This document shows, piece by piece, positions 3,329 to 55,875 of a DNA stretch of 64,000 bases (position 1 is its first letter; every line of letters starts with the position of its first letter). The position numbers and the translations under genes were made by a program. The notes below the pieces were generated by a model. It searched no databases. It worked only from the letters and a program-made list of their open reading frames with translations, and was not told the origin of the DNA. The stretch is from Opitutales bacterium (GTDB taxonomy: Bacteria; Verrucomicrobiota; Verrucomicrobiia; Opitutales; UBA2995): NCBI GenBank assembly GCA_022824405.1, contig JAJDZZ010000047.1, forward strand, positions 1 to 64,000, read 5' to 3'.

Positions 3329-3388
3329 AAGCGGGACGATTATTCACCCTCGTCCGAGGTCAACGGCAAAATGGCGCTAATTGCCGAA

Positions 3389-3444
3389 GGCACAAAGGCA
3401 CAAAGGCACAAAGGCACAAAGGCACAAAGGCACAAAGGCACAAA
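3389..3444 (+). repeat. Tandem array of 8-bp unit ggcacaaa (7 copies)
   Basis: Seven perfect head-to-tail copies of ggcacaaa, followed by ggggga. The unit length is not a multiple of three, so the array reads as a repetitive artefact (GTKAQRHK...) in the frame that crosses it. It is not a CRISPR, since there are no spacers. It is a candidate slipped-strand variable locus. Confidence 0.95.
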
Positions 3445-3526
3445 GGGGGAACCTCTGGCTACACGGATTTTCCGGATAAATCAACCAATTGGAGAGGTTC
3501 TCGGTAATGTATCGTCGGTTTCGTAG

Positions 3527-3589: not shown

Positions 3590-3613
3590 AAAAATTCCTA
3601 ATTGGCGCCTTTG

Positions 3614-3706
3614 GTGGAACCCCGTTGGGGTTCGATCATATACTTGACCGGTAACCCAGCGTGCGCTGCGCGACACTGGGCTATGGAGTCTAACGCCTTT
3701 GGCGTA
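3614..3706 (-). repeat. ~92 bp structured intergenic repeat, copy 1
   Basis: The reverse complement matches 50849-50940 end to end: an ACGCCnnnGGCGT hairpin, a central imperfect palindrome around 'cccagtgtcgcgcagcgc' and 'acgctggg', and a terminal 'gaaccccaacggggttc' hairpin. The middle linker differs between copies while the hairpins are conserved, which suggests selection on, or propagation of, the folded form. Confidence 0.85.
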
Positions 3707-3944
3707 AATACCAGATGCTGGTTGCTGGTTCTCGACCTTGGGGCTCTTTCCCGATGTCAATTTCTAATCGGCGCCATCGGCGCCTTTAATCCGTGTCCAT
3801 CCGTGAAATCCGTGGTTTTTTTCTTTTCCATATCTCCGCGTTCTTGGCGAGCTTTGCCAATTGCGTGACTTGTCCGCTTGGCGAGAGTCAATTCCACGAT
3901 GCTCGATGCTGGGGCATTTTTGGGTCATATAATTGGCCCTCGAA

Positions 3945-5744: not shown

Positions 5745-6944
5745 GTGACCAGGATGTTGTTTCAAAGGACAATGATGGCTTTTTTGCCAGTATTGGCCCT
5801 GGCCTTTCCGCTGCAATGCCTCTCGGCCCAGGAAAACCCGCGGGCGCGTGACTTGGGAATTCCCTTTGAAGGCAATCCGGGCCCCTTCAATGCCATAACC
5901 GACGTGGCGGGAATCGGGGTGGGTTACGCTTCCATTATAAGGGGGAAAGGTAAGCTCGTCGTGGGGGAAGGCCCCGTCCGCACCGGTGTTACCGCCGTCT
6001 TTCCCCGAGGCAAAATGAACCACGACCCGGTTTACGCCGGATGGTTTTCCCTCAATGGCAACGGCGAAATGACGGGCATGGCCTGGCTGCAGGAATCGGG
6101 ATTTTTACACGGCCCCATCCTCATTACCAATACGCACAGCATCGGCGCCGTGCATGAAGCCGTGATAGCCTGGCAGAAGATGCGATTCCCCAAGGCGCCG
6201 TCTTGGTCGCTCCCCGTGGTCGGCGAAACCTGGGATGGTTATCTCAACGATATCAACGGATTCCACGTCAAACGGGAACACGTTTTCCAAGCCATGGACG
6301 GCGCTGCAACGGGACCCATCCAAGAAGGCAACGTGGGGGGAGGAACGGGAATGGTATGCTATGAATTCAAGGGCGGAACGGGGACTTCCTCCCGACTCGT
6401 GGCCGGACCCGATGGCACTTTCACCTTGGGTGTACTTGTTCAGGCCAACTTCGGAAGACGCCATCAGCTATTGGTGGCGGGGGTTCCGGTGGGGAAGGAA
6501 ATAACGGAAGACGCACCCTTCACCGGGGGTCGCGATCCCTATGAAGAGGAGGGATCCATCATAGCGGTGGTGGCGACGGACGCCCCGTTGCTGCCAGTTC
6601 AATTGAGGCGCTTGGCCCTGCGCGTTGCCTTGGGGATTGCCCGCACCGGCAGCGTCTCCGGGAATAGCTCCGGGGATATGTTTCTGGCATTTTCCACGGC
6701 CAATCCCGGAGCGGCGAATCCGAATAGCGGTATGGCACGAATTGAAGTCCTGTCCAACCAACACATCAGCGCGCTCTTTTCCGCCACCGTCATGGCCACT
6801 GAAGAAGCCGTTATCAATGCCCTTGTCGCAGCCGAAACAATGGTCGGCCGGGATGACCATCGCGTGGTCGCCCTACCCCATGACCGACTCCGGGAAATTC
6901 TGCGCTCCTACAATCGCTTGAAAGGGGTCAAACGTAGAAAATAG
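5745..6944 (+). CDS. Secreted P1-family peptidase (DmpA / beta-aminopeptidase type)
   Basis: A 399-residue N-terminal-nucleophile peptidase of family P1, which includes L-aminopeptidase D-Ala-esterase DmpA and beta-peptidyl aminopeptidase BapA. A signal peptide (to about residue 28, LSAQ) suggests export. Family blocks include DVAGIGVGYASI, PILITNTHSIGAVHEAV, VGGGTGMVCYEFKGGTGTSSR, EEEGSIIAVVATDAPLLP and SGNSSGDMFLAFSTAN. From family knowledge, the precursor self-cleaves before the serine of GSIIAVVATD (Gly270-Ser271 here), making that Ser the nucleophile. The GTG start at 5745 lies 12 nt after AAGGAG; an ATG three codons later is an alternative. The last residues (GVKRRK) and the TAG stop are encoded by the left arm of a repeat element (6921-7035), so the original C-terminus may have been altered. 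Confidence 0.93.
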   Translation: MTRMLFQRTMMAFLPVLALAFPLQCLSAQENPRARDLGIPFEGNPGPFNAITDVAGIGVGYASIIRGKGKLVVGEGPVRTGVTAVFPRGKMNHDPVYAGWFSLNGNGEMTGMAWLQESGFLHGPILITNTHSIGAVHEAVIAWQKMRFPKAPSWSLPVVGETWDGYLNDINGFHVKREHVFQAMDGAATGPIQEGNVGGGTGMVCYEFKGGTGTSSRLVAGPDGTFTLGVLVQANFGRRHQLLVAGVPVGKEITEDAPFTGGRDPYEEEGSIIAVVATDAPLLPVQLRRLALRVALGIARTGSVSGNSSGDMFLAFSTANPGAANPNSGMARIEVLSNQHISALFSATVMATEEAVINALVAAETMVGRDDHRVVALPHDRLREILRSYNRLKGVKRRK

Positions 6945-7035
6945 AATTTTCCCGGCCTGATTGCTTGGGTGCCGGTTACTGGGGAAATTAACCGCAAAGA
7001 TAGAGATAATTCTAATTTCTACGTTTGACCCCTTT
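6921..7035. repeat. REPIN-like inverted-arm element, copy A
   Basis: The left arm (aaaggggtcaaacgtagaaa, continuing to 'atagaatt') and right arm ('aattctaatttctacgtttg' plus 'acccctttt') are inverted repeats of about 28 bp with one mismatch, spaced by ~60 bp. Copy B at 16119-16258 shares both the arms and the core phrase ('cccggc...attgcttgggtgccgg'). The left arm overlaps the 3' end of the upstream peptidase gene. The size and twin-arm structure match the REPIN class of non-autonomous elements, which are mobilised by RAYT (Y1) transposases; no such transposase gene is in this window. Confidence 0.85.
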
Positions 7036-7135
7036 TTGAAAAAGTGGGGCCTTGGGCAATATAGTCCTTGATCTACCCTACCCTTTTTGGAATAAAACTG
7101 TTTTTACTCGTCAAGCCCGCCAAAAAGCCTGTTAC

Positions 7136-12856: not shown

Positions 12857-14773
12857 GTGAGCGATCCCATCAGACATGAGTGCGGTATCGCCCTCGTTCG
12901 CCTGAAAAAGCCGCTCTCTTATTATCAGGAGAAATACGACTCCCCCTTGTGGGGGTTCTATCAGTTGTTTCTCCTCATGGAAAAACAGCACAACCGGGGA
13001 CAGGATGGCGCGGGAGTAGGAGCGTTGAAGTTGAATGTTCCACCCGGCAAACCCTACATCTTTCGCAAGCGAAGTATTCAACCCAACTCCTTGAATCTTA
13101 TTTTCAACAGTTTGATCGATGCCTATAAGGCAAAGGTCGAACGCGGAGATATTCACCCCGAATTTGCCGCCACCGTAAAAGAAAACTTCGATTTCGGAGC
13201 GGAAATTTACCTCGGCCACCTGCGTTACGGGACCTCCGGAGGTTATTCCGAATCCAGTTGCCACCCCTACTTCCGCCGCAACAACTGGCCCACCCGTAAT
13301 CTCATGGTAGCGGGTAATTTCAACATGACCAACACCCCGGAGCTGAATGAACGGCTCATCGATCGCGGGCAACATCCCATTTTCGATACCGACACCCAGA
13401 CCATTCTGGAGGAAATCGGTTATCATTTGGATGAGGAACATCGCCGTCTCTACCACGTAAACCGCGATGTGAACGGCCTGTCCGGGATGGATAACGCCCA
13501 GGCCATCAGTGAAAAGTTGGACATTGCCGAGATTCTGAGGAAATCGAGCCGGGAATGGGATGGCGGATATTCCATAGCTGGAATGATCGGCACCGGGGAT
13601 TGTTTTGCCCTGCGCGATCCCTGGGGGATCCGCCCCTTCCATTTTTTCGAGGACGATGAAGTAATTGCGGTGGCATCGGAGCGCGCCCCACTTATGACCG
13701 TTTTTGCCAAACAGGCCGATGATATACAGGAGATCGAACCAGGGGAGGCCGTTATCATCAGGAATAACGGCCAGGCGCATCGTCATCGAATTCGCGATCC
13801 GTTCGACCGCGTATCATGCTCCTTTGAACGGATTTACTTCTCCCGCGGTAACGACGTGGAAATCTATAGGGAGCGGAAAGCGTTGGGCCGAGCTCTCATC
13901 GATCAGATCATGGAAGCCATCGACGACGATTTGGAAAATTCCATCTTCAGTTTCATTCCCAACACCGCCGAAATGGCTTATTACGGTCTCATTGATGGCC
14001 TGCACAAGAGACGTCGGCACGAAGTCAAGAAGGAGATCCTGAAAAAATCCCGAATCGGCGGCATCAATGAAAGCTTCCTGGATAAGGTAATTATGCGGAA
14101 CTGGCCCCGAACTGAGAAAGTCGCTATCAAGGACATCAAATTGCGAACTTTCATCAGCCAGGAAAAAGACCGGGCCGACCTCGCATCCCACGTCTACGAT
14201 ATAGCCCACGGCAGTGTTGGTCCGTCAGATACCCTGATCTGTTTGGACGACTCCATTGTTCGAGGCACTACCCTGCGTAAGTCGATCGTCAAAATCCTGG
14301 CCCGTCTGCAACCGAAGGAAATCATCATCGTGTCCACCGCCCCCCAGATCCGCTATCCGGATTGCTACGGCATCGACATGTCCCGACTGGAAAAATTTAT
14401 TGCCTTTGAGGCTGCTATTTCTCTGCTCAAAGACCAGGACCGCGAAGGGCTCATACGCCAGGTATACCTGGAGTGCCTGAACCAGGCCGAGAAACCCATC
14501 GAGCTGATGACTAACCGGGTGAAACAGATATACGGAAGTTTCTCCGACGAGGAAATATCGGCCAAAATATGCGAAATGGTTCGGCCCGATCTGGCCTATT
14601 GGGATGGGAAGCTGACCATCATTTACCAAACTATTGAAAACCTTCGACGCGTTTTACCGAACCATCGAGGGGATTGGTATTTTACCGGTAAATATCCCAC
14701 CCATGGAGGGTATCGGGCCCTTAATACCGCTTACATCAATTATTATGAAGAACGTCTGGGACGAAGCTATTGA
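12857..14773 (+). CDS. purF: Amidophosphoribosyltransferase (PurF), long variant
   Basis: First committed step of purine synthesis, PRPP + glutamine to phosphoribosylamine. The N-terminal Ntn-type glutaminase starts MSDPIRHECGIALVRL; removal of an eight-residue propeptide would expose Cys9 as the nucleophile. Further glutaminase blocks are MEKQHNRGQDGAGVG, GHLRYGTSGG and DPWGIRPFHF. The phosphoribosyltransferase part has the PRPP loop CLDDSIVRGTTLRKSIV. At 638 residues it is well above the ~480-505 of classical PurF; the extra length lies mainly in the linker between the two catalytic parts and in the C-terminus (GDWYFTGKYPTHGGYRALNTA). Comparably long PurF-like proteins are known to me from Bacteroidetes. 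GTG start directly abutting the purC stop codon. Confidence 0.92.
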   Translation: MSDPIRHECGIALVRLKKPLSYYQEKYDSPLWGFYQLFLLMEKQHNRGQDGAGVGALKLNVPPGKPYIFRKRSIQPNSLNLIFNSLIDAYKAKVERGDIHPEFAATVKENFDFGAEIYLGHLRYGTSGGYSESSCHPYFRRNNWPTRNLMVAGNFNMTNTPELNERLIDRGQHPIFDTDTQTILEEIGYHLDEEHRRLYHVNRDVNGLSGMDNAQAISEKLDIAEILRKSSREWDGGYSIAGMIGTGDCFALRDPWGIRPFHFFEDDEVIAVASERAPLMTVFAKQADDIQEIEPGEAVIIRNNGQAHRHRIRDPFDRVSCSFERIYFSRGNDVEIYRERKALGRALIDQIMEAIDDDLENSIFSFIPNTAEMAYYGLIDGLHKRRRHEVKKEILKKSRIGGINESFLDKVIMRNWPRTEKVAIKDIKLRTFISQEKDRADLASHVYDIAHGSVGPSDTLICLDDSIVRGTTLRKSIVKILARLQPKEIIIVSTAPQIRYPDCYGIDMSRLEKFIAFEAAISLLKDQDREGLIRQVYLECLNQAEKPIELMTNRVKQIYGSFSDEEISAKICEMVRPDLAYWDGKLTIIYQTIENLRRVLPNHRGDWYFTGKYPTHGGYRALNTAYINYYEERLGRSY

Positions 14774-14793
14774 AGACCTTCCGGGCAACACCT

Positions 14794-16119
14794 ATGAAAC
14801 AACACTTCCACAACCTGTTACTGGTCGGCTCGGGCGCGCGGGAACACGCCTTGGCCAAGGCCATTAAACGGTCCTCCCGTCCGCATTCTCTGGTAACTTT
14901 TGCATCGAGCACAAACCCCGGAATTGCCCATCTCTCACAAACCTTCGCCCTGGGAAATATCAACGATCCCGAGGCGGTAGCGGCATTCGCGCGTGCAGAG
15001 AATGTCACCCTCGCCGTGGTCGGTCCGGAAGCGCCCTTGGAAACCGGGGTGGCGGATGCGCTCTGGGAACAGGGCATTCCCGTAGTGGGACCGAGGAAGG
15101 AATTGGCCATGATTGAAACCAGCAAAGGGTTTGCCCGGAGCTTGATGACCGAGTTCGGCATCCCCGGATGTCCCGATTACCGGCACTTTCGGACCTTGGA
15201 AGGGGTTAAGGATTTTCTCCAAGGTCTGTCGGATAATTTCGTGGTAAAGGCGGACGGGCTGATGGGGGGCAAAGGAGTCAAAGTGGCCGGGGATCACCTC
15301 CATTCCCACCGGGAGGCCCTCGAATACTGCGAACTACTCATCGCCAAAGGGGCTTCCTTTGTCATCGAAGAAAAATGCATAGGGGAAGAATTTTCCATGT
15401 TCAGTTTTTGCGATGGCCCAACCCTGAAGCACATGCCTCCCGTCCAGGACCACAAACGCGCCTACGAAGGAGATCAGGGGCCCAATACGGGAGGGATGGG
15501 AAGCTACAGCGACCGCGATCGCAGCCTGCCCTTTCTTAACCGTTCCGATATTGAAGCGGCCCAGGCGACGAACGAGTTGGTGGCGGAAGCCCTACGAAAA
15601 AAGATCGGCCATGGTTACAAGGGAATTCTATACGGCGGTTACATGGCTACGGCGGATGGGATCCGGGTCATTGAATTCAACGCGCGTTTCGGCGATCCCG
15701 AGGCCATGAACCTGCTAACCCTTCTGGAAACCGATATCATCGACATTTTTGAAGCCATAGGAAATGAAACACTCCACACCATAGAGGTTTCCTTTGCCCC
15801 CAAAGCCTCGGTTTGCAAATACGCCGTACCCGCCGGTTATCCCGATAATCCGGCCAAAGGTTTTGCCGTGGGTATTGAACGAGTGGAACAACCCGAGAAC
15901 CTCTTCCTCGGAGCAGTGGATTTGATTCAAACCCAACTCGTCGCCACCGGTTCAAGAACTGCGGCAGTAGTGGGAATAGCCGAGGAACTGGAAGAAGCGG
16001 AAGCCATCGCTGAAAATCTTGTCTCTCAAGTGGAAGGCGACCTGTTCCACCGCCAGGATGTGGGAACCCGGGAATTGATCGAAAAACGGGTCTCTCACAT
16101 GCGGTCCTTGAGAAAATGA
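14794..16119 (+). CDS. purD: Phosphoribosylamine-glycine ligase (GARS)
   Basis: Second purine step: ligates glycine to phosphoribosylamine. ATP-grasp enzyme of 441 residues from the ATG at 14794. The N-terminus is LLLVGSGAREHALAKAI. Other blocks are VVGPEAPLETGVADAL, the ATP-grasp core VVKADGLMGGKGVKVAGD, DHKRAYEGDQGPNTGGMGSY, and the signature FNARFGDPEAMNLL. The frame is open upstream to a TTG at 14770 that overlaps the purF stop, but the ATG gives the standard N-terminus. The stop codon abuts repeat element B. Confidence 0.96.
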   Translation: MKQHFHNLLLVGSGAREHALAKAIKRSSRPHSLVTFASSTNPGIAHLSQTFALGNINDPEAVAAFARAENVTLAVVGPEAPLETGVADALWEQGIPVVGPRKELAMIETSKGFARSLMTEFGIPGCPDYRHFRTLEGVKDFLQGLSDNFVVKADGLMGGKGVKVAGDHLHSHREALEYCELLIAKGASFVIEEKCIGEEFSMFSFCDGPTLKHMPPVQDHKRAYEGDQGPNTGGMGSYSDRDRSLPFLNRSDIEAAQATNELVAEALRKKIGHGYKGILYGGYMATADGIRVIEFNARFGDPEAMNLLTLLETDIIDIFEAIGNETLHTIEVSFAPKASVCKYAVPAGYPDNPAKGFAVGIERVEQPENLFLGAVDLIQTQLVATGSRTAAVVGIAEELEEAEAIAENLVSQVEGDLFHRQDVGTRELIEKRVSHMRSLRK

Positions 16120-16258
16120 AGGGGTCAAACGTAGAAAATAGAATTATCCCGGCGTCATTGCTTGGGCGCCGGATACTACGGAAATTAACCACAAGGTCCG
16201 GGATAATTCTATTTTCTACGTATGACCCCTTTTTCGCCTTTTTCTACGTATGACCCCT
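16119..16258. repeat. REPIN-like inverted-arm element, copy B, with an extra arm
   Basis: The left arm (aaggggtcaaacgtagaaaa...) begins at the purD stop codon. The right arm (about 16205-16235, ending 'ctacgtatgacccctttt') is its inverted copy. A partial third arm follows at 16239-16258 ('tttttctacgtatgacccct'). The core resembles copy A at 6921-7035. The purN ATG at 16250 lies inside the third arm, so the element touches genes on both sides. Confidence 0.85.
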
Positions 16259-16849
16259 GCGCCCAAAAAAGTAGCCGTCCTGGGATCGACCCGCGGTTCC
16301 TCCCTGCAACCGGTAATCGATGCCATCGAATCGCGACGGCTAAACGCCGAAATCGTCGGGGTGGTCAGCAATAGGAAGAAATCCGTCATCCTGCAGAGGG
16401 CCCGATCCCACGGCTTGAACGCTATTTTTGTTTCAATCAAGGGAAAGAACCGTGCTGAATTCGACGCCGAAGTATCCGGGATCTTGCGGGAATTAAACCC
16501 GGATCTCATTCTCTGCATAGGCTACATGCGGATTCTATCGGAATCTTTCGTCAAAGAGTGGTACGGCAAGGCCATAAACGTGCATCCATCCCTCTTGCCC
16601 AAGCACCGGGGACTCATGGATCTCGAGGTGCACCGGGCCGTTTTGGATGCCGGCGACAGGGAAACCGGCTGCACTCTCCATCTGATCGATGAGGGGGTGG
16701 ATTCCGGCCCCATTCTCGTTCAGAATGAAATCCCGGTGGAAACCAATGATTCCCCCGAAAGCCTTAAAGCCAAAGTTCAGCCTTTGGAAGGCCAAGCCTT
16801 CATCGAACTTATTCGGTCGTGGCCCATGGAGGGAAGGCCGCAGCAATAA
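16250..16849 (+). CDS. purN: Phosphoribosylglycinamide formyltransferase (PurN)
   Basis: Third purine step: 10-formyl-THF-dependent formylation of GAR. The 199-residue protein has the GART pattern VAVLGSTRGSSLQPVIDAI, the catalytic INVHPSLLPKHRG (Asn110, His112) and HLIDEGVDSGPILVQ (Asp151), matching E. coli Asn106/His108/Asp144. The chosen ATG at 16250 is the only ATG before the first beta strand (KKVAVLG), and it lies inside a repeat arm (tacgtATGacccct). No Shine-Dalgarno sequence is visible upstream; either translation is leaderless/weak or a nearby non-ATG codon is used. Separated from purD by repeat element B. Confidence 0.93.
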   Translation: MTPAPKKVAVLGSTRGSSLQPVIDAIESRRLNAEIVGVVSNRKKSVILQRARSHGLNAIFVSIKGKNRAEFDAEVSGILRELNPDLILCIGYMRILSESFVKEWYGKAINVHPSLLPKHRGLMDLEVHRAVLDAGDRETGCTLHLIDEGVDSGPILVQNEIPVETNDSPESLKAKVQPLEGQAFIELIRSWPMEGRPQQ

Positions 16850-50770: not shown

Positions 50771-51163
50771 TGTGACGTCCCTGAAAATAAACCACCACAG
50801 AGAGGGAGAAACCACGGATTATACGGATGGGCACGGATAGAAATTTTAACGCCAACGGCGTTGAACTCCAAAGCCCAGTGTCGCGTAGCGCACGCTGGGT
50901 AGGAACAGGAACAAAATTACGAACCCCAACGGGGTTCCACAAACATGGGGATCGTGATGGGGGATATCCTGAAGGCAAATTCATACGAAAAAGTCCGTCC
51001 TTGGTGTGAACAAATTAACGGGACATGACACTGGGAACATTCAACCCCTGATCAGGAATGGTTGAAAATGGTTCCCGGAAGTGGAGCATGACTACCGGGA
51101 CAGATGAGGTGGTCGACGCTTCCTTAATTTTTTAACCCCTACCAAAACCCAAGAAATAAGCAC
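50771..51163. other. Intergenic repeat mosaic
   Basis: A 393 bp gap with no gene. Bases 50801-50840 hold an inverted ATCCGTG phrase ('gaaaccacggattatacgga'), followed by the ~92 bp structured element (50849-50940). The rest (50941-51163) shows no recognised feature beyond an AT-rich leader for the next gene. Confidence 0.65.
50849..50940 (+). repeat. ~92 bp structured intergenic repeat, copy 2
   Basis: Same hairpin order as 3614-3706 in the opposite orientation: ACGCCAACGGCGT, the imperfect palindrome centred on 'gtgtcgcgtagcgcac' flanked by CCCAG...CTGGG, then GAACCCCAACGGGGTTC. The left flank 'ggatgggcacggatagaaat' recurs at 54246-54265 beside a partial third copy (to ~54300). Confidence 0.85.
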
Positions 51164-54105: not shown

Positions 54106-54456
54106 TGTGGTTTTCTTTAAATAAATAACCACAAAAGGCGTCTTCGGCGCCAATTAGGATTGAGGAATTGGGAGAAGAGTAACCAAAAACCAGAAGACAA
54201 ATTTCACTGACCACTAGCCACTGGTCACTAATCACTAATGAAACGGATGGGCACGGATAGAAATTCTAACGCCAACAGCGTAATAGCCAGATGCTGGTTC
54301 GTGTCCCCGACGCCTTCCTCCCCCATTCCATCACTCCATCATTCCTTTCCTTCCGATCAAGATCACGATCACGATTAATTTCAGAACCTTTAACCTTTAG
54401 CCTTCTTCCTTCATCCTTCATCCTTTTTCCCCTCCCTTCTCCCCAATTCCTCATTC
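54106..54456. other. Intergenic repeat mosaic
   Basis: A 351 bp gap with a GGCGCCAATTAGGATTGAGG phrase (54146-54165), a 'ccactagccactggtcacta' stretch, a partial third copy of the structured element with its left flank (54241-54300), purine/pyrimidine phrases ('cttcatccttcatccttttt'), and CCTAATT copies (54436-54470) running into the 3' end of the next gene. No gene. Confidence 0.65.
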
Positions 54457-55875
54457 CTAATTCCTAATTGGCGCCTTTGGCGCCTCTGGGCGCTTCTCCG
54501 TCTTTTCCATGGTCCAGCCGGTAAAGCCGTAAATCAGGGAGATAATCGGGTTGAGCAGGTTCAAAAACGCGTAGGGCAGATAGGCAAAAGGATTTACCAT
54601 GAGAGCCGCCATCATGGTTGCCCCACAGGTGTTCCAGGGAATGAGAGGTGAGCTGAGGGTACCCGCATCCTCCAGACAACGGGACAGGTTTTTCATATGC
54701 AGACCTGCCGATTCGAAGGAATTCCGGTACATGCGGCCAGGAAGGATTATGGAGAGGTACTGATCCGGGGCCATAATATTCATCCCGATACAGGTGGCGA
54801 GGGTGGCTCCTACCAACCGGCCCGTGGTAGTGGCGGTTTTGAGCACTGTCCTGGAGATGGCAGCCAGCATGCCGGTCCCTTCCATCAGGCCCCCAAAAGC
54901 CATGGCGCAGAGAATTAGTGAAATCGTCCAGAACATGCTCTCCAACCCTCCCCGGGAGAGGAGTTCGTCAATGTGAGGGTTCCCCGTATCTGAAACGTAA
55001 CCCTCCTGCATGATGGCAAACATGGAGGCGACCGGTATGTCCTGCAGGAATATTCCCAATGCGGCCCCGACAAATGCCCCGCCCAATAACGCGGGCAGGG
55101 CTGGCATCCGCAGAGTTATCATGAGGATAACCGAAATCGGCGCCAACCATAACCAGGGACTCAAGTTGAATTCACTCCTCAAAACGGCGTTCAGGGCCTC
55201 CACATTTTCGATGCTGGCGGCGCTCGATCCCTGCGACATTCCCAACAGGCCGTAAAGGACCAGGGCGATGGCCAAACTGGGAACCGTGGTGTAAAGCATA
55301 TGCCTGATGTGAACAAACAATTGCGTTCCAGCCACGGCCGGAGCCAGGTTCGTGCTGTCGGATAAGGGGGACAATTTATCCCCGAAATAGGCTCCCGATA
55401 CAATGGCGCCCGCCACCATGGGCAGGGGCATTTCCAAGCCCTGCCCAGCTCCGATCAAGGCAACACCCACCGTTCCCGCCGTAGACCATGAACTGCCCGT
55501 GGCAAAGGATACTACCGCACAGATAAGGCAACTGGCTATGAGAAATATTTCCGGCGAAAGAAACCTCAGTCCGTAATACACCATCAACGGGACTATGCCG
55601 CTGGCTACCCAGGATCCTATCAGTATCCCAATGGCCATTAAAATGAGGACGGCGGCCATGGCCAGGGAGATTCCCCTCACCATCGAAGCCTGTAAATCCT
55701 TCCAGGAATACCCCAACCCGATCCCGGTTATCCCAGCTACGCAACAGGCCAGGATGAGGGGCACGTGCGGCGAAGCATCCAATAAGAAAATTCCCGCGAA
55801 CAATGTGGCTATCAAAAAGAAAACCGGAATCAGCGCATGGCCGAGGGAGGGGATTTTGGGCGCTGAATCAGTCAT
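54457..55875 (-). CDS. NhaC-family Na+/H+ antiporter
   Basis: A 472-residue integral membrane protein with about 11-12 hydrophobic segments. Family blocks: VVSFATGSSWSTAGTVGVALIGAG, GAIVSGAYFGDKLSPLSDSTNLAPAV and LIPWNTCGATMMAALM, characteristic of the NhaC ion-transporter superfamily. It may exchange Na+ (or organic ions in this family) for protons. The C-terminal KRPEAPKAPIRN and its stop are encoded by a GGCGCC/CCTAATT repeat, so the natural tail is altered. Third gene of an ALDH-DUF3016-nhaC operon (9 bp gaps). Confidence 0.92.
   Translation of the reverse strand: MTDSAPKIPSLGHALIPVFFLIATLFAGIFLLDASPHVPLILACCVAGITGIGLGYSWKDLQASMVRGISLAMAAVLILMAIGILIGSWVASGIVPLMVYYGLRFLSPEIFLIASCLICAVVSFATGSSWSTAGTVGVALIGAGQGLEMPLPMVAGAIVSGAYFGDKLSPLSDSTNLAPAVAGTQLFVHIRHMLYTTVPSLAIALVLYGLLGMSQGSSAASIENVEALNAVLRSEFNLSPWLWLAPISVILMITLRMPALPALLGGAFVGAALGIFLQDIPVASMFAIMQEGYVSDTGNPHIDELLSRGGLESMFWTISLILCAMAFGGLMEGTGMLAAISRTVLKTATTTGRLVGATLATCIGMNIMAPDQYLSIILPGRMYRNSFESAGLHMKNLSRCLEDAGTLSSPLIPWNTCGATMMAALMVNPFAYLPYAFLNLLNPIISLIYGFTGWTMEKTEKRPEAPKAPIRN

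Follow-up and report, generated by a model that had tools for sequence, protein, structure and literature searches.

How a gene begins when a mobile repeat lies across its start is the question raised by the purD/purN junction of the window, as we call the whole stretch of 64,000 nucleotides analyzed here. RAYT-linked repeats are usually viewed as passengers in spacer DNA. In this stretch, one of them lies inside a purine operon of the order purL-purM-purQ-purC-purF-purD-purN-GNAT and reaches into the first codons of purN. We consider it probable that an inserted RAYT-type element cut purN off from its coupled start, that the window lineage uses an element-derived start instead, and that G001, a genome of the same genus, deleted most of the element.

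Anatomy of the purD/purN junction

The purD gene (14770..16119, + strand; TIGR00877, 403 bits against a cut-off of 288), whose true start may lie slightly inside these limits, ends with a TGA at 16117-16119 that overlaps an ATG at 16116-16118. Directly 3′ of this stop, at 16120, begins copy B, a two-armed element with a core of 111 bp (16120..16230). Its 26-nt left arm, AGGGGTCAAACGTAGAAAATAGAATT (16120..16145, + strand), faces an inverted partner of 26 nt, the right arm (16205..16230, − strand), in which an A to T change at arm position 9 creates an ATG at 16222 on the + strand. The inverted repeat of the copy (I4) measures 34 nt and is 97% complementary, and its RNA is predicted to fold into a hairpin of -65 kcal/mol (z = -10). 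As Rfam gave no match near significance for copy B, we dropped the idea that it is a known structured RNA.

The end of the element is duplicated. The sequence TTTTCTACGTATGACCCCT at 16212-16230 recurs 28 nt further on, at 16240-16258, the tandem unit (16212..16239, + strand) consisting of 19 nt of arm end and the linker TTTTCGCCT. The result is a third arm (16240..16258, − strand) outside the hairpin, which repeats the outer 19 nt of the element end and includes the ATG of purN at 16250 (16250..16849, + strand; TIGR00639, 172 bits against a cut-off of 150). An element with a third arm holding the purN start was what the preliminary description had claimed, and sequence inspection and a repeat search found it in place; the 19-mer arm has five matches in the window with at most three mismatches, against 0.03 expected by chance.

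A RAYT-linked family with GGGGTCA ends

The source genome (3.39 Mb in 92 contigs) has 16 copies with two arms, besides a few arms that stand alone, and the 26-mer arm has 32 matches genome-wide, while a reversed control has none. One RAYT-type Y1 transposase gene of the genome, on contig C22, sits between two copies of the element. It encodes a protein of 312 aa with Y1_Tnp at 13-121 and a long portion beyond (PF01797, 43 bits against a cut-off of 23; NF047646, 67.5 bits, under its cut-off of 80). Ten of the 16 copies have interiors that match the final codons of this gene (GHPSRIT..., best E 1e-9), and they therefore resemble RAYT units shortened by internal deletion. A second subfamily, to which copies A and B belong, has a different middle, and this showed no match to the RAYT 3′ end when the interiors of all 16 copies were compared.

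The arms are strongly conserved. Positions 1-17 are identical in 31 of the 32 arms, the single substitution being the TTG to ATG change in the right arm of copy B. Arms agree better with their own partners than with swapped ones (permutation p = 2e-4), and of the 27 outer pairs of positions between the arms, 25 are invariant and two are changed on both sides; arm pairing is thus constrained or homogenized within copies. GTAG is present within the arm, yet stems form only between the two arms. In 17 of the 32 RAYT loci examined, we found inverted ends of at least 20 bp with GGGTC or GGGGTC, typically 50-90 bp 5′ of the RAYT start codon and, at the other end, near its stop codon. At six of the loci (L118, L121, L125, L127, L135 and L141), the terminal TGACCC of the unit provides the TGA that stops the RAYT gene.

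Two known systems resemble this family. TIRtrons consist of a RAYT-type Y1 transposase gene with inverted ends that share GGGGWSAS, and their TIR repeats are also dispersed (Di Nocera et al. 2013, PMC3733652); TIRYT transposases, a clade with an HTH extension at the C-terminus, are subclass 2.1 of TnpA-Y1 (PMC6006769). The likeness lies in the Y1/RAYT gene between inverted ends of one family, here GGGGTCAA, and in dispersed end copies that occur as dimers (PMC3733652). The family end fits GGGGWSAS up to the seventh base, the eighth being A and not S. The sequence family differs from TIRtrons in being new in Opitutia, and many of its dimers carry the last RAYT codons between their arms. REPINs (Bertels and Rainey 2011, PMC3116915) share with it two inverted arms around a spacer in a single long hairpin, a link to RAYT, a mostly intergenic position and conserved arms around a variable middle, and their excision is reported to leave a few bases in place. 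However, the arms here are not GTAG-tagged self-palindromes, there are 16 copies rather than hundreds, and the middle is partly RAYT-derived. As a short non-coding element with inverted ends, in a family with RAYT remnants in 10 of 16 copies but none matched in the A/B subfamily, copy B also has the make-up of a MITE.

The term REPIN-like, used in the preliminary description, therefore holds in the broad sense of a dispersed, RAYT-linked hairpin, whereas a strict REPIN was rejected because the arms are not self-palindromic and the tag differs. Judged by its ends and by the flanking of the RAYT gene, copy B is better described as a putative non-autonomous, MITE-like relative of a TIRtron-type RAYT (Y1) unit with GGGGTCA-tagged inverted ends, an element of known kind in a new sequence family. 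GGGGTCA-ended units across Opitutia, along with miniatures that keep the last codons of the transposase, offer a direct view of repeat families arising from an autonomous unit.

Four copies (L007, L016, L022 and L029) share an outer tail, TTGGGTAACCCT or TTGGGTATCCCT, with the palindrome GGGTWACCC, so in some cases the mobile unit may extend beyond the arms. Element ends are also repeated in tandem elsewhere: L012:1619-1638 has TTTGACCCCT twice in a row, and L111:1467-1520, in genome G308, has a pair of arms 35 nt apart. Among RAYT units with simple inverted ends, the closest is G007:C342:2701-3672 (L071, L151), at 82-84% identity; it seems to be disrupted, as it contains an internal TAG and its two matched stretches are separated by a break.

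Position of the copies relative to genes

Thirteen of the 15 copies inspected lie at most 16 bp from the stop codon of a gene or supply it, and about seven are between convergent genes. Such a distribution, together with the very stable stem of copy B, which ends in CCCCUUUUU, would suit a terminator, an attenuator or a site of RNA processing by which purN is tuned relative to purD, and the arm would then hold the start codon only incidentally. We find this unlikely, as the operon around copy B keeps its order where the element is missing, and neither the third arm nor the unique ATG change would be explained. A terminator scan did not list copy B, its 8-nt loop limit excluding hairpins of this kind.

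Copy A (6923..7033), of the same subfamily as copy B, lies between an S58 peptidase gene and purL and supplies the peptidase stop, TAG at 6942-6944, so that the protein ends in NRL-KGVKRRK* where the G001 orthologue ends in NRLNE*. It is present in G000 and absent from G001, a gain or loss of the element, and G001 has a clean empty site, CTTGAACGAATGAAAAAG. At this one clean site there is no target-site duplication and the difference is 4 nt. GTAG REPs likewise give stop codons to flanking ORFs (PMC3733652), and the element ends do so here in copy A, in L018 and in the RAYT gene itself (KGVKRRK*). In contrast, the end of copy B supplies a start codon, and start codons are without mention in that work (PMC3733652).

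Other gene ends near copies deserve note. The TTG at 7052 taken as the purL start is not conserved, as G001 has TTT GGA there; the PurL model begins at residue 57, and the true purL start is uncertain. On contig C22, the aldo/keto reductase gene that adjoins the RAYT gene (L005:572-1628, − strand) has no start codon outside the element, and its domain (PF00248, 37-342) begins at about residue 37 of a frame that opens inside the element; this seems to be a second gene whose 5′ end was captured by a copy. At L018:254-3028 (contig C83), a copy is flanked by two genes that run in the same direction. The upstream one takes its stop from the copy (KTP-KGVKRRK*); the downstream one, which has a stretch like a signal peptide, has a frame that stays open back into the element and no start outside it. 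Relatives of the genes adjoining L005 and L018, sought to confirm these starts, were not found in four genomes.

Copies A and B share one orientation and are 87% identical over 116 nt, a geometry that permits the deletion or inversion of ~9 kb of the purine operon proposed in the preliminary description. No such rearrangement was found, and we rejected the proposal: gene order is intact here and the same in G002, a complete genome of the same family in which no such arm was found, and the longest tract identical between the two copies is 27 bp.

The start codon of purN

Capture of the purN start by the inserted element, our preferred reading, depends on which codon opens the gene. An in-frame TGA at 16223 is followed by eight codons (CCC CTT TTT CGC CTT TTT CTA CGT) and then by the ATG at 16250, the only start codon between that TGA and the conserved core of PurN. 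An upstream non-ATG start had been considered in the preliminary description, but the eight-codon stretch contains none of ATG, GTG, TTG, CTG and ATT. The lack of a Shine-Dalgarno-like motif 5′ of ATG 16250, also pointed out there, is real but unremarkable, since such motifs are barely above background at the roughly called starts of the window and 9 of its 39 genes lack one; we no longer treat it as a signal.

The third arm carries the same TTG to ATG change as the right arm of copy B, and this site alone has the arm in its ATG form. In folding models, which ignore ribosomes, opening the purN start takes 7.5 kcal/mol with the third arm and 35.0 with a single arm, compared with 8.9 in G001 and 5.1-12.3 in six relatives, and a ribosome on the 45-codon ORF described below would open the hairpin anyway. 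A dN/dS of 0.13 between the source genome and G001 shows purifying selection on PurN, so the gene was kept despite the insertion. It is quite unlikely, then, that the third arm arose by neutral slippage or in assembly and has no effect on purN. Short tandems of element ends do occur elsewhere, at L012 (TTTGACCCCT twice) and L111 (arms 35 nt apart), and the assembly is a draft; however, the ATG arm form is unique to the copy B site, so a chimera with some other copy cannot account for the third arm, purN is intact and under purifying selection, and collapsing the repeat shifts the predicted opening of the start from 7.5 to 35.0 kcal/mol.

The former purN ATG at 16116 opens a 45-codon ORF that runs through copy B (16116..16253, + strand), and its TGA at 16251-16253 overlaps the new purN ATG. 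In a single-arm version, the ORF would run for 76 codons, out of frame, into purN. Ribosomes ending purD could restart at 16116, read the 45 codons and initiate once more at the ATGA of 16250, a possible but weakly supported way of coupling purN to purD. Among the frames of the element family, about half stay open in this manner, so the ORF is only suggestive and we no longer take it as strong evidence of coupling. We propose tentatively, and would sooner doubt than assert, that the third arm with its ATG rescued purN adaptively, moving the start out of the hairpin, closing the ORF at ATGA and recoupling purN to purD through a short element-encoded peptide. What stands out at this locus is the capture of a start codon and what looks like a rescue through duplication of the element end.

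History of the junction

The element-based start that we favor can be set against the junction in relatives. In six genomes of the same family (a sister genus), the element is absent, purD and purN meet as TAAATG, and seven PurN residues precede VAVLG or IAVLG, as in MSQAPVRVAVLG. The window PurN also has seven, MTPAPKKVAVLG, with P at position 5 as in three of the relatives. We checked the element-free relatives for an N-terminal MTP and found none: they start with MS.., MA.. or MT.., one of them with ATG ACC. Together with the length of the window protein, these N-termini indicate that the purN start position is native in length. The first purN codons may be part native and part element-derived, and given the ATG ACC of one element-free relative, part of ATGACCCCT may be native.

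The history of the junction is read from one sister genome, G001, and from draft assemblies. PurN of G001 has five residues in this position (MKGSKVAVLG), and its junction, AAAATGA|AGGGGTCA|AAAGTAGCC, includes 8-11 nt of the left end of the element at exactly the point where the element of the window begins. On the simplest reading, the middle part, AGGGGTCA, is a scar: the insertion would predate the split of the window lineage and G001, and the element would later have been lost in G001. The genome of G001 (91% complete) gave no RAYT match and has few, decayed arms, in line with loss of the system there. That the G001 junction is instead ancestral, the element targeting sequences that resemble its own end (AAGGGGTCAAAAGTAG) and inserting only in the window lineage, is very improbable, because, although the junction matches 15 of the first 16 arm nucleotides (AAGGGGTCAAACGTAG), its GTAG is native purN sequence, GCGCCCAAA in the window would be left unexplained, the family's seven-residue N-terminus, which the window and not G001 has, would need restoration by chance, and the empty site of copy A (CTTGAACGAATGAAAAAG) is unlike the arm.

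Under the insertion and capture that we prefer, copy B, presumably mobilized in trans by a RAYT (Y1) transposase, would have entered the purD/purN ATGA overlap in the common ancestor of the window lineage and G001, separating purN from its coupled start. In the window lineage, TTG in the right arm would then have become ATG, and duplication of the element end as a 28-nt tandem would have set a second ATG just outside the hairpin, where ribosomes could reach it; selection may have favored both changes, and the cell would presumably initiate purN at 16250. In G001, most of the element would have been deleted between breakpoints in A tracts, and about 8-11 nt of the left arm would have stayed behind as purN codons (MKGS). 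Two sister genomes would thus represent two outcomes at the start of one biosynthetic gene, repair by end duplication and deletion with a coding scar.

The flanks of eight copies were found in G001. Besides the scar of copy B, only the site of copy A is clean, and the other sites mostly hold unrelated repeats. The window has other dispersed repeats of its own at 3361-3448, 3593-3857, 50810-50943 and 54136-54485 (TTCCTAATTGGCGCC..., CATCCGTGAAATCCGTGG... and 8-bp CAAAGGCA tandems), and sequences similar to these fill several of the G001 sites that hold the element in the source genome.
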